Assembly: GCA_000309945.1 (NCBI GenBank)
Contig: CM001633.1
Span: 4,537,912-4,601,911 of the forward strand
Source: Leptolyngbyaceae cyanobacterium JSC-12
GTDB taxonomy: Bacteria; Cyanobacteriota; Cyanobacteriia; Leptolyngbyales; Leptolyngbyaceae
Reading direction: 5' to 3'
DNA: 64,000 nucleotides
Below the pieces are notes generated by a model. That model was given only the letters and a program-made list of their open reading frames with translations, searched no databases and was not told where the DNA came from. Below are positions 8,229 to 46,430 of this stretch, one piece after another; position 1 is the stretch's first letter; each line of letters opens with the position of its first letter. The position numbers and the translations under genes were made by a program.

Positions 8229-9503
8229 CTAGTTTGAAAGGTAGATCTCACGGTTGGCAGTGTCTTGGGCTTTTTGCATCGCACTAGACAGGGATTGCTC
8301 TCCCAGTAAGGCGCTAATAAATTGATTGTTGAAATTGGTGAATAAGGTAGGTAGAGTTTCTTTGCCTTGCCAGATCGTGGCGTAAGAGGCTCCTCTGGCA
8401 AAGGGGGCATACAGTGGATTCTGATTATATCCCAACTCTGCCAGTACTGATCGCCGACTGGGAAGTGCTAATCCCTGTTGTGCCCAGGTTTTCATTCCCT
8501 GTTTGCTGGTTAGAAACGCAATCAACTTCCAGGCAGCCTCTTTATGGTTTGATCTGCGATTTATCACATAAGCAACGGTGTATGCCATTGTGCCGCGTTT
8601 GCCGTTGACTGTTGGCACTTCAGCCGTGCCAAACTCCAAGCTGGGAAATGTTTCCTGAAAGTAAGGAATCGACCACGGACCTTCAATCACCATTGCCGCT
8701 TTGCCCTGCCCCAGCATTTCGCTACCCCAGGTTGCGCCTACATCGGTTGGTAGAGCAGCGGTGCAATCGCGCCGATATTGATTCACCAGCAGTTCTAGCC
8801 CTTTCAAACTGGCTGGATTCGCAAACGTAGCATAGCCATTGGCATCGTTTAACCTCCCTCCAAATGCCTGCATCATGAACACTTGTCGAGCAAGTTCGGG
8901 AGCCAGTCCAAATCCATATTGGTCAGGCTTGCGATCGCCGTTTTTGTCCACGGTCAACTGTTTAGAAACCGTCAATAACTCATCCCAGGTCTGCGGCGGT
9001 TGGGAGATGCCTGCCTCAGCAAATGCATGCTTGTTATAAAACAACGCCAGCGTTGAGAAATCTTTGGGCAAACCGTAAATCTTGCCATTGCGCTTAAACG
9101 CATTCAGCAGCAACGGTTCAAAATCTGCCAAATGAAACTCTGGCGTAATGTAACTATCCAGCGGCTCCAGCACCTCGTATTTCATCAACAAAGGAGCAGT
9201 AAACGCTTCCAGATAAAACACATCGGGTGCCACATCCCCAATCAAGCGAGTTTTGATCACGTCCATATACTCGCTGTTAATCACCTCGTACTTCACATCA
9301 ATGTTGGGATGTTGTGCCTCAAATTCTTCAATCAGTTTTGTGAGCAACTTCCCCTCATTAGGATTGCTTTGCCAACCGCTAAACCGAATCGTGACAACGG
9401 GTTCATTTGCCTGCGCCATATCTGGCTCTGTCCGAGAAGGAGTTCCACAGGCAGAAAGCGCGATCGCCAATCCAGCCAATAATCCAACGTGGAAGTGTTT
9501 CAT
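8229..9503 (-). CDS. ABC sugar-binding lipoprotein (extracellular solute-binding family 1)
   Basis: 424 residues. The lipobox is LSAC (Cys19). The mature protein follows the MalE/family 1 plan: ITIRFSGWQS-type strand near 40, PDVFYLEAF, YGLPKDFSTLALFYNK, TWDELL, GKAAMVIEGPWSIPYFQ and KEAAWKLIAFLTS. It binds a sugar or polyol in the periplasm. Its start codon overlaps the stop of the upstream deacetylase by 4 nt (ATGA), so the two are translated together. No sugar permease genes follow. Ligand unknown; glucosylglycerol or trehalose-type ligands are known for cyanobacterial relatives, but this is only a possibility. Confidence 0.85.
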   Translation of the reverse strand: MKHFHVGLLAGLAIALSACGTPSRTEPDMAQANEPVVTIRFSGWQSNPNEGKLLTKLIEEFEAQHPNIDVKYEVINSEYMDVIKTRLIGDVAPDVFYLEAFTAPLLMKYEVLEPLDSYITPEFHLADFEPLLLNAFKRNGKIYGLPKDFSTLALFYNKHAFAEAGISQPPQTWDELLTVSKQLTVDKNGDRKPDQYGFGLAPELARQVFMMQAFGGRLNDANGYATFANPASLKGLELLVNQYRRDCTAALPTDVGATWGSEMLGQGKAAMVIEGPWSIPYFQETFPSLEFGTAEVPTVNGKRGTMAYTVAYVINRRSNHKEAAWKLIAFLTSKQGMKTWAQQGLALPSRRSVLAELGYNQNPLYAPFARGASYATIWQGKETLPTLFTNFNNQFISALLGEQSLSSAMQKAQDTANREIYLSN

Positions 9504-10405
9504 GGTTTATGATGCTCATGCCAATGACGAGCAATATCAATTCGGCGGCACAACCAGACGCGATCGTGCTTCTGAACATAGTCTAGAAAACGAGCAAGGG
9601 AAGCTGCACGACCTGGTCTGCCCACCAAGCGGCAATGCAACCCAATACTCATCATCTTGGGAGCAGTTTCACCTTCGGCATACAGCACATCAAAGGCATC
9701 CCGCAGGTAAGCAAAAAACTGATCGCCAGAGTTAAACCCTTGAGGCGTGGCAAATCGCATGTCATTGTTGTCGAGCGTGTAGGGAATCACAAGATGCGGC
9801 TTGCCATACTCGTAGGTCCAGTAGGGTAAATCATCGGCATAGCTGTCGGCATCGTAAAGAAAACCACCTTCTTCAACCACTAGTTTGCGGGTGAAGGGGC
9901 TAGTGCGCCCAGTATACCAGCCTAATGGACGGCTACCTGTGACTTGGGTATGGAGTGCGATCGCCTGCTGCAAATGTTCTCGTTCTGCATCTTCACTAAA
10001 ATACTTGTAATCAATCCAGCGATAGCCATGACTGGCAATTTCCCAATCTGCCTCTTGCATCGCAGCGATCGCCTCTGGATTTCGTCCTAATGCCATGGCC
10101 ACGCCATACACCGTAACAGGAATTTGGCGCTCAGTAAACATCCGGTACAACCGCCAAAATCCTGCTCGACTGCCATACTCATAGCAAGACTCCATATTCA
10201 TGTGGCGCAATCCCATCAAAGGTACTGCTCCCACAATCTCTGATAAAAACGCCTCCGAAGCCTGATCACCATGAAGGATGCAGGTTTCTCCCCCTTCCTC
10301 GTAATTGATCACAAACTGAACCGCAACACGAGCCTGGTTTTGCCATTGGGGGTCAAAGCCATACCGACCGTACCCCACCATATCTCGCGGATAGCTTTCG
10401 CGCAT
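9500..10405 (-). CDS. PuuE-type polysaccharide deacetylase-family hydrolase (allantoinase-like)
   Basis: 301 residues of the NodB-fold family, closest in pattern to PuuE allantoinases: YPRDMVGYGRYGFDPQW at the N-terminus, VQFVINYEEGGE, RAGFWRL, ASHGYRWIDYKYFSEDAEREH, WYTGRTSPFTRKL and GLHCRLVGRPGRA near the end. PuuE-like enzymes hydrolyse allantoin without the usual metal-dependent amidohydrolase fold; related members act on other amide substrates. It is first in a two-gene unit with a sugar-binding lipoprotein (4-nt overlap). No other purine breakdown genes are in the window, so the substrate stays open. Confidence 0.8.
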   Translation of the reverse strand: MRESYPRDMVGYGRYGFDPQWQNQARVAVQFVINYEEGGETCILHGDQASEAFLSEIVGAVPLMGLRHMNMESCYEYGSRAGFWRLYRMFTERQIPVTVYGVAMALGRNPEAIAAMQEADWEIASHGYRWIDYKYFSEDAEREHLQQAIALHTQVTGSRPLGWYTGRTSPFTRKLVVEEGGFLYDADSYADDLPYWTYEYGKPHLVIPYTLDNNDMRFATPQGFNSGDQFFAYLRDAFDVLYAEGETAPKMMSIGLHCRLVGRPGRAASLARFLDYVQKHDRVWLCRRIDIARHWHEHHKP

Positions 10406-10492: not shown

Positions 10493-10563
10493 AGGGAAGA
10501 ATCACACTCCTAGTTCATACTTTTTGAGGAAGGAATTGTCTGATAACCCACGTATTCTTAAAC

Positions 10564-10624
10564 CATAGACAGTTGCTCAAGTGCAACCAAACATACCCAG
10601 CGGGGGGCTGCTGGGTATTTTTTT
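10564..10624 (+). ncRNA. Candidate small RNA, copy 1 (about 61 nt, two hairpins)
   Basis: Predicted RNA: a 5' stem-loop GTTGC-TCAAGT-GCAAC (10572-10587), a short spacer, then a hairpin TACCCAGC-GGGGGGCT-GCTGGGTA (10594-10617) followed by seven T, a textbook intrinsic terminator. The whole unit recurs 194 nt downstream. Between copies the terminator stem differs at two pairs in a compensating way, while the 5' hairpin and the G-rich loop are unchanged, which argues for a selected RNA. Upstream, CACGTATTCT (about 10549-10558) looks like an extended -10. It may be a member of a named cyanobacterial small RNA family, such as NsiR1, NsiR4 or IsaR1, which could not be verified here. Confidence 0.7.
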
Positions 10625-10757
10625 ACTTTGAAGTCTTAAATAACATCCAGTGAAAATTTTGCAGAAATTACTAACCTGAGTGGGTGATTGACTTGGGTGA
10701 AATAGAAATCCCACTGATTGGGGAAGGGAACAATGTGTTCATCACGTACATTAGAAA

Positions 10758-10817
10758 CATAGACAGTTGCTCAAGTGCAACCAACTTACCTGGCGGGGGG
10801 CTGCCAGGTATTTTTTT
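10758..10817 (+). ncRNA. Candidate small RNA, copy 2 (about 60 nt, two hairpins)
   Basis: Same layout as copy 1: ATAGACAGTTGCTCAAGTGC identical, 5' hairpin GTTGC/GCAAC, then TACCTGGC-GGGGGGCT-GCCAGGTA (10787-10810) and seven T. The stem changes CA/TG to TG/CA relative to copy 1, keeping every pair. CACGTACATT (10744-10753) lies at the -10 position as in copy 1. The T-run reaches two bases into the stop codon of the convergent alpha/beta hydrolase gene, so the same hairpin may also protect or end that mRNA. Function unknown. The exposed G6 loop could pair with C-rich targets. Confidence 0.7.
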
Positions 10818-11703
10818 ATCCATTTCTCAAGAAAGCGAGGAGTTCTCGGTTGACTGTTTGCGGAGCTTCTTGCTGTAGCCAATGACCACAGTGGGGGATA
10901 AGCTTAAGGTTAAAAGGTGCTGCAATCAAGCGTTCTAATCCTTGGGTGACTTTTGGGGTAACGAGGGAATCTTCTTCGCCCCACAGTACTAAGGTCGGTA
11001 CTGTTATCGGGCTGGGAGTAGTCATCCAATCACGTAGCCAATTCCAGGGAGAAAACATTTGTCGGTAATAGTTAAGTGCTGCCGATAGAGCACCAGGTTT
11101 TGCGAGTGCCGATTGATACACTTGAGTATCTTCCTTCGTGAATGCACCTTTACGAATGGCTTGTTCGCGCAGTAGATTTTTGACGAATTCAGCCAGGTTT
11201 TGCTGGATTAGCCATTCAGGAATGCCAGGAATTTGAAAGCTAAGAATGTACCAACTTCGGCGTAATTGATCCAGGTTACTAACGAGTTCTTGCACAAATC
11301 GCTGAACCGGAGCCGCGCTCAGGATTGCCATCCGGTTCAAATATTGGGGGAATTTTTGCGCCATGTGCCAAGCGATCGCACCTCCCCAGTCATGTCCCAC
11401 AATATGAGCGCGCGTATAACCCAAACTCTCAATCAGTCCTTGAATATCTGCTGCCAGGGTATCCAGGTCGTAGCCACTAGGAGGCTTATCGGAATCGTTG
11501 TACCCTCGTAAATCAGGCACAACGACTTTGAAATGGCGTGCTAGAGCTGGAATTTGATACCGCCAGGAATACCAAAATTCTGGAAAACCATGTAAAAGAA
11601 GAACAAGTTCGCCCGCTCCCTGAGTTACGTAATGCAAACGGATACGGTTGGTTTCGACAAAATGATGTTCCCACTCGGTAGTGCTCAAAGCAGTCGCGGT
11701 CAT
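10816..11703 (-). CDS. Alpha/beta hydrolase, epoxide hydrolase-like
   Basis: About 295 residues from the ATG at 11703, chosen because similarity begins just after it; an upstream in-frame start at 11763 would add 20 residues without matches. Features: oxyanion HGFPEFWYSW, DLRGYNDSDKP, nucleophile elbow GHDWGG (Asp), a cap domain (about 130-220), WGEEDSLV with the acid, and the final HCGHWLQQEAP with the catalytic His. An Asp nucleophile with HGxP and W next to it is typical of soluble epoxide hydrolases and haloacid or fluoroacetate dehalogenases. Substrate not predictable. Its 3' end meets the terminator of small RNA copy 2. Confidence 0.85.
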   Translation of the reverse strand: MTATALSTTEWEHHFVETNRIRLHYVTQGAGELVLLLHGFPEFWYSWRYQIPALARHFKVVVPDLRGYNDSDKPPSGYDLDTLAADIQGLIESLGYTRAHIVGHDWGGAIAWHMAQKFPQYLNRMAILSAAPVQRFVQELVSNLDQLRRSWYILSFQIPGIPEWLIQQNLAEFVKNLLREQAIRKGAFTKEDTQVYQSALAKPGALSAALNYYRQMFSPWNWLRDWMTTPSPITVPTLVLWGEEDSLVTPKVTQGLERLIAAPFNLKLIPHCGHWLQQEAPQTVNRELLAFLRNG

Positions 11704-11803
11704 AAGGCAAAAGTTAGAGTCCAAGCGTGTCCACCGCAAACTGTTAGAGTTTCGCGATCGCACGTATTTTAAACTACCATCGAATTCATCTTAGTTGCAG
11801 GTA

Positions 11804-46356: not shown

Positions 46357-46430
46357 CGGGATGTAGCGCAGCTTGGTAGCGCACTTCGTTCGGGACGAAG
46401 GGGCCGCTGGTTCGAATCCAGTCATCCCGA
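46357..46430 (+). tRNA. tRNA-Pro (CGG)
   Basis: Full cloverleaf in 74 nt: acceptor CGGGATG/CATCCCG, D arm with GCGCAGCTTGGTAGCGC, anticodon stem CTTCG/CGAAG around loop TTCGGGA (anticodon CGG), T arm GCTGG-TTCGAAT-CCAGT and discriminator A. CCA is not encoded. Confidence 0.96.

Follow-up and report, generated by a model that had tools for sequence, protein, structure and literature searches.

A tandem pair of candidate small RNA genes in Leptolyngbyaceae cyanobacterium JSC-12 and an operator shared with envelope-type genes

Two short intergenic units in the 64,000-nt stretch of DNA analyzed here (the window) represent a candidate small RNA (sRNA) family, designated sRNA1, whose members lie behind a common operator composed of GGTGA/TCACC half-sites. 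In many genomes the same operator precedes a second sRNA as well as genes of envelope-type and exported proteins. The reading favored here, with moderate confidence, is that the two sRNAs are sibling trans-acting regulators which, together with envelope and exported proteins, form an operator-linked, hitherto undescribed and partly envelope-directed regulon. The sRNA1 family is very probably real and the operator regulon is likely to be so. That the regulon is mainly directed at the envelope is held at slightly better than even confidence. Judged from the sequences, sRNA1 probably helps to regulate an envelope-related response.

Tandem sRNA1 units and their surroundings

The features of the locus are listed in Table 1. 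Both units are located where an earlier note on this DNA had placed them, with starts 194 nt apart. Its description of two short RNA genes between coding genes, each having a promoter-like region and a terminator of its own, with covarying terminator stems, holds, and tandem copies occur in other genera as well. Each unit consists of a common 5' part, a short linker, a terminator hairpin and seven T. The identical 5' part comprises 26 nt from the putative start and is thus longer than the 20 bases noted before. Copies a and b have the GTTGC/GCAAC hairpin, GCGGGGGGCTGC at the tip and seven T in common, whereas two pairs of the terminator stem are changed between them (TACCCAGC/GCTGGGTA versus TACCTGGC/GCCAGGTA), both with the compensation that had been described. 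The proposed open loop of six G is not maintained in the predicted fold. The G run is closed by a G-C and a G.U pair (A-U in many relatives), leaving a GGGG tetraloop.

The folding energies of copies a and b have z-scores of -4.0 and -3.7 relative to shuffled sequences, and none of 200 shuffles folded as well. In the complete genome (5.53 Mb in one contig) a pattern of tip plus T run and the covariance model R1 each gave two matches. Owing to these z-scores, the two genome matches per search and the conservation in other species, the tandem units are considered to be beyond chance.

The left neighbor is transcribed divergently and the right neighbor convergently, the stop codon of the latter meeting the end of copy b. 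Since both neighbors are encoded on the opposite strand, the units are neither a leader nor a 3' UTR. A terminator of their own, the absence of a same-strand coding gene and the conserved structure mark them as candidate independent sRNA genes. In Rfam 15, sRNA1 has no match to any family above the gathering threshold. The sole match in the whole window is a tRNA (46357-46430, + strand). At the sRNA1 locus a search with E ≤ 10 returned one irrelevant match on the other strand (18.6 of 60 bits, far below the threshold), and eight related loci yielded tRNA only.

Table 1. Positions in the window of the sRNA1 units, their upstream elements and the adjoining genes.
Feature	Position	Strand	Basis
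Operator of copy a (copy 1), half-sites AATCACAC, GTTCAT and GAGGAAGG, about -65 to -32	10500..10533	+	sequence, alignments A4/A5
Putative -10 box of copy a, TATTCT	10553..10558	+	TAnnnT conservation; putative start site
sRNA1 copy a, ~60 nt	10565 to about 10625	+	covariance model R1 match of 85.2 bits, folding
5' hairpin of copy a, GTTGC-TCAAGT-GCAAC	10572..10587	+	folding
Terminator of copy a, GGGG-tipped hairpin and seven T	10594..10624	+	folding, covariation
Operator of copy b, half-sites GGGTGA (first half-site flipped), AATCCCAC and GGGGAAGG	10695..10727	+	sequence; conserved in G002
Putative -10 box of copy b, TACATT	10747..10752	+	TAnnnT conservation; putative start site
sRNA1 copy b, ~59-60 nt	10759 to about 10818	+	covariance model R1 match of 83.7 bits, folding
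Terminator of copy b, GGGG-tipped hairpin and seven T	10787..10817	+	folding, covariation
Left neighbor, allantoinase PuuE, divergent	9500..10405	-	TIGR03212, ORF
Right neighbor, alpha/beta hydrolase, convergent	10816..11763	-	PF00561, ORF

Structure and covariation

In an alignment of 52 distinct sequences, which was fitted to the model and includes four doubtful copies, pairing in the terminator helix extends to 100% of the cells, and six of its eight pairs display changes on both sides. Both helices together contain 114 double-changed cells, compared to 29.4 in shuffled alignments. A MAFFT alignment of 13 sequences exceeds all 500 shuffles in covariation score and in double-changed cells; two further measures were reached by 29 and 31 of the 500 shuffles.

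The first hairpin is present in much of the family of the window's genome (f1) and missing in a second family (f24). There, the 5' part reads GATAAGTGACGTTCAT and lacks a stable hairpin, and a conserved stretch of 13-16 nt appears to be single-stranded. The heptamer GGGGCTG is found in all 48 copies aligned, a count that is partly built in as the search model contains the tip. A second model, R2 (promoter plus RNA), is anchored in the promoter and revealed two altered tips. The usual CAG-GGGG-CTG is replaced by CAG-CCCC-CTG in one genome (G294, locus L206) and by CAG-CTCC-CTG in another (G029, L192), as if the loop were inverted. These tips could be real or assembly artifacts. Both the loss of the first hairpin in f24 and the changed tips in G294 and G029 count against the favored reading.

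Distribution and copy history

A BLAST search with one unit in 58 genomes, as the earlier note had proposed, gave matches in 18 at E ≤ 0.1; the weakest of these look like chance. Model R1, for which 13 units from 11 genomes were used, detected sRNA1 in 19 of 42 genomes of f1 (E ≤ 0.01), eight of which are outside the training set. Throughout the class, 43 of 388 genomes have a match at E ≤ 0.001 under strict filters by which weak matches are lost; 19 belong to f1, 24 to f24 and none to a third family. The three genomes of the window's genus contain two matches each, and the promoter region is conserved. This is far from the hundreds of scattered copies lacking a conserved promoter that the earlier note had named as the mark of a simple terminator repeat. 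That the units are unexpressed, representing decayed or chance terminator hairpins, is highly improbable given that RNA body, covariation and promoter are conserved across genera.

A promoter at the usual place is missing in four of the 43 genomes (G026, G057, G239 and G250); the remaining 39 are arranged in the usual way or raised no further doubt. Alignment A4 comprises 48 copies, and five of 53 R1 matches were omitted from it: L077, L094, L097 and L089 for want of a promoter at the usual place and L093 for a misplaced end. The loci in G057, G239 and G250 (L077, L094 and L097, respectively) are sRNA1-like terminators with a different 5' part and an operator match on the same strand 194-287 nt upstream. 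A longer or a second transcript is possible at these loci. At E ≤ 0.01, 52 of the 388 genomes have matches to model R2, which also include other units under a similar promoter. Its weak matches in three further families (f23, f26 and f13, E 0.001-0.009) were left out of the sRNA1 count.

When contigs of named genomes were scanned with a pattern, 20 stretches were obtained, all with cyanobacterial titles, some of which are merely 'Cyanobacteria bacterium'. The names are Leptolyngbyaceae, Pantanalinema and Leptolyngbya in f1 and Elainella, Oculatellaceae, Drouetiella, Pegethrix and Phormidium tenue FACHB-886 in f24. None of the genera named is known to form heterocysts.

Tandem copies are present in three genera, namely in the window's genome (G000) and G002 of genus g1, in G142 and G174 of g78 and in G233 of g122 (one triple and one pair). 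Within the window the two RNA bodies are 0.90 alike and their upstream regions 0.59. Between the window and G002 the upstream regions are 0.74 (a-a) and 0.75 (b-b) alike, compared to 0.49 and 0.54 crosswise, with bodies 0.90-0.98 alike. From this pairing of a with a and b with b, and from the nearly constant bodies, the duplication is judged to be old, predating the split of the window's species and G002, with the RNA body kept constant since.

Local control of the adjoining purine (allantoin) degradation genes would agree with the 14 loci in the window's family that adjoin puuE and with a homolog of OHCU decarboxylase in eight loci of two genera (HMM match on one). In f24, however, RNA and operator are retained next to other neighbors (chlH in 11 loci), and such a local role is regarded as very improbable.

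Promoter and operator

The main common upstream element, at about -65 to -32, was missed in the earlier note. In f1 this operator reads AATCACCC-N..-GTCATC-N..-GGGGAAGG. In f24 it reads AATCACCC-N5-GGTGA-N..-GATGAAG and is followed by TAnnnT. A clear -35 hexamer is seen in neither family. The first half-site is flipped in copy b of the window and in loci L066 and L079. In the 48 aligned copies the A and the second T of TAnnnT are invariant and the first T is found in at least 90%. The CACGTAnnnT context described previously is therefore to be divided: its TAnnnT part is kept across the family, whereas the CACG beside the -10 box is not conserved.

In the 120 nt upstream, neither copy has TCCGGA (the DIF motif), GTAN8TAC or HLR1; a relaxed GTN10AC is present at -27 of copy a only. 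The J-Box of SigJ (GGGaAtacT) and the Rre1 motif (GTNCGGK) were compared by eye and do not match. Hand-made operator patterns did not recover the known copies in the window's own genome or in a set of 17 genomes, and in the 17 a reversed control scored about equally. These patterns failed because the operator spacing varies.

Further genes behind the operator

Model R3 contains the operator and the -10 box only and no part of the RNA (44 sequences used of 58 promoter stretches). It recovers the operator of copy a in the window's genome with E = 3.1e-5. In 41 genomes of the family R3 gave 137 matches at E ≤ 0.1, compared to about four expected, with at least one match in 32 of the 41. sRNA1 and training sites make up 18 of these matches. 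Throughout the class, 66 of 388 genomes have a match at E ≤ 5e-4, distributed over f1, f24 and 14 other families.

Sixty R3 sites other than sRNA1 were read, 40 from the family search and 20 from the class search, for the most part those ranked highest in each search and not a random sample. Peptidoglycan-binding proteins follow the operator at nine sites in eight genomes (PF01471 on two) and a secreted-looking protein of ~190 aa, judged by eye and assigned to no family, at six sites in six genomes. TolC-type proteins (four sites, four genomes; PF02321 on two) and HlyD-type proteins (two sites, two genomes; HMM match on one) recur as well. Small proteins of the DUF2949 type are found at eight sites in eight genomes (HMM match on one) and of the DUF4278 type at three sites (HMM match on two). 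The second sRNA occupies 12 of the 60 sites, and 16 of the 60 have no recurrent gene.

Envelope-type or secreted-looking proteins thus account for 21 of the 60 sites, or 21 of the 48 non-sRNA sites, as a raw count without a background rate. This share is a lean towards the envelope and not proof. Neither DUF2949 nor DUF4278 is known to have an envelope role. The 11 DUF sites and the 16 sites without a recurrent gene count against an envelope-directed regulon. They would fit an operator whose regulator responds more generally to stress, light or nutrients, with envelope genes as part of its range and sRNA1 serving that response. Against such a regulator, proteins of the peptidoglycan-binding, TolC, HlyD and secreted-looking types recur at the 21 sites in different genomes, and it is considered rather unlikely, though by no means negligible.

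In several families the operator precedes the small DUF4278 and DUF2949 proteins (L353, L357 and L358 and the DUF2949 sites), which is a lead to the regulation of these genes. A further sRNA-like unit, with ACTGATATACCTAAGCAGTTTGT... and a GAGA- or GAAA-tipped terminator, is located in three genomes (L195, L196 and L197 in G221, G162 and G133, respectively). It lies behind an operator-like stretch and was found through weak R2 matches.

The second sRNA

All 12 second sRNAs were among the first 40 sites read. They start with TAGAG[C/T]A[C/T]A, or with a sequence very similar to it, and end in a hairpin. The hairpin tip has at least four G in nine of the 12 (AUG-GGGG-CAU in six), three G in one and none in two. 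Two further copies, L194 and L203, were found with R2. An ORF of the YebC/PmpR family is positioned convergently beside nine of the 12 and beside L203; the assignment is based on an HMM match for the L203 copy and on the N-terminus for the others. The genome of the window possesses a second sRNA of its own outside the window (L237, G000:C1:322625-322690, - strand). It has the same operator, a GAUGGGGGUUUAAC tip, a convergent YebC-type gene and relatives in other genera. Matches to a strict pattern for the second sRNA were confined to the window's family (seven genomes of the 388 scanned); the form present in the window's own genome escapes this pattern. Common descent of the second sRNA and sRNA1 is plausible.

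Targets and the GGGG tip

The earlier note had proposed the G run as a seed for C-rich targets. The G run is indeed conserved; the target part of the proposal found no backing, with antisense matches at chance level. An antisense 12-mer of the conserved 5' region of f24 had nine matches outside sRNA genes in 18 genomes, compared to 15 for the reversed control, and no common gene was obvious in eight of the nine loci read. Among porin leaders, runs of at least four C are present in 12 of 25 at no consistent place; for this set 30 of 56 matches were taken, of which five yielded no start, and several of the starts assigned were wrongly placed. Neither search lends support to base pairing.

A live alternative is that the sRNAs are real and operator-driven and present their GGGG tetraloop to a protein, as decoy or sponge, with no base pairing involved. 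It would account for the missing targets, for the constancy of GGGGCTG while the stem varies and for the return of a G-GGGG-C tip on the unrelated stem of the second sRNA. On the other hand, the apparently single-stranded 5' stretch retained in f24 is what a pairing region would look like, the tip is itself part of the search model behind the 48 of 48 count and there is no known protein partner. Protein binding of this kind is regarded as unlikely, while pairing to mRNA is kept in the favored reading.

Comparison with known sRNAs

An intergenic sRNA of this kind is ordinary in type and new as a family; the interest lies in the regulon. The nearest sRNAs were compared by description. In titles and opening lines of abstracts from the open-licence literature on Leptolyngbya sRNAs, sRNA1 is not named.

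According to excerpts of the published account, NsiR1 of Nostoc sp. PCC 7120 is about 60 nt long and occurs in tandem copies, each with its own promoter; the 12 copies lie upstream of hetF, carry the DIF promoter motif and are heterocyst-specific (PMC9045159). As far as these excerpts go, sRNA1 agrees with NsiR1 in size, tandem arrangement and putative individual promoters and differs in having two copies, other neighbors and another promoter element. The earlier note had drawn this comparison, and kinship had been suspected from tandem matches in the second family. After the names of the genomes and the motif check it was given up. DIF is missing within 120 nt upstream of both copies, the immediate neighbors are PuuE and the alpha/beta hydrolase and not hetF, and none of the 20 named stretches has the name of a heterocystous genus (several are merely 'Cyanobacteria bacterium'). 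Identity or direct kinship with NsiR1 is considered highly improbable.

IsaR1 is controlled by Fur and NsiR4 by NtcA. In the portions of the sources consulted, IsaR1 (68 nt) and PsrR1 (PMC6202907) as well as NsiR4 (PMC4734099) are described as stress-controlled trans-acting sRNAs, and PsrR1 is placed under RpaB (PMC6202907). With these sRNAs, as so described, sRNA1 would share a trans-acting role and control by stress. The promoter sites of the NsiR4 and PsrR1 type (GTAN8TAC, HLR1) are missing from the 120 nt before either copy of sRNA1.

Yfr1 and Yfr2 are short, abundant cyanobacterial sRNAs according to excerpts of PMC4734099, PMC2662882 and PMC6778093, and Yfr2 forms a family of multiple copies whose regulator is of the GntR type (PMC2662882, PMC6778093). 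The Yfr1 motif CACUCCUCACACC and the GGTGTGAGG-type 5' stretch of Yfr2, as given in these excerpts, were not seen in sRNA1 by eye.

Proposed mechanism and implications

In the favored reading each sRNA1 gene would be transcribed from its own activator-type promoter up to its intrinsic terminator. A DNA-binding protein would read the GGTGA/TCACC half-sites at about -65 to -32, which would replace the -35 hexamer. Presumably in response to an envelope signal, this regulator would switch on sRNA1, the usually GGGG-tipped second sRNA (mostly beside yebC), envelope and exported proteins and the small DUF proteins. The sRNAs may pair with C-rich mRNA sites through the 5' part, the GGGG tip or both.

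MicA, RybB and CpxQ are enterobacterial envelope-stress sRNAs that are co-regulated with envelope genes. If the favored reading is right, sRNA1 and its sibling would act like these sRNAs and adjust other mRNAs for as long as the regulon is active, a likeness of type and not of sequence kinship. The sRNA1 operator presumably differs from sigma-E and Cpx sites. Tentatively, and at somewhat less than even confidence, several cyanobacterial families may possess an undescribed GGTGA/TCACC envelope-response regulon whose sibling GGGG-tetraloop sRNAs are the counterpart of the sRNA arms of sigma-E and Cpx.

sRNA1 provides a clear and testable sRNA family outside the model cyanobacteria, tied to an operator that in many genomes is also found before envelope-type genes and a second sRNA. 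It is unusual for a GGGG tetraloop to be conserved on two different stems, and its partner, mRNA or protein, can be searched for directly. If the regulon is real, the sensing of envelope damage and the response to it in cyanobacteria would be open to direct tests, including deletion and assay of the RNA arms.
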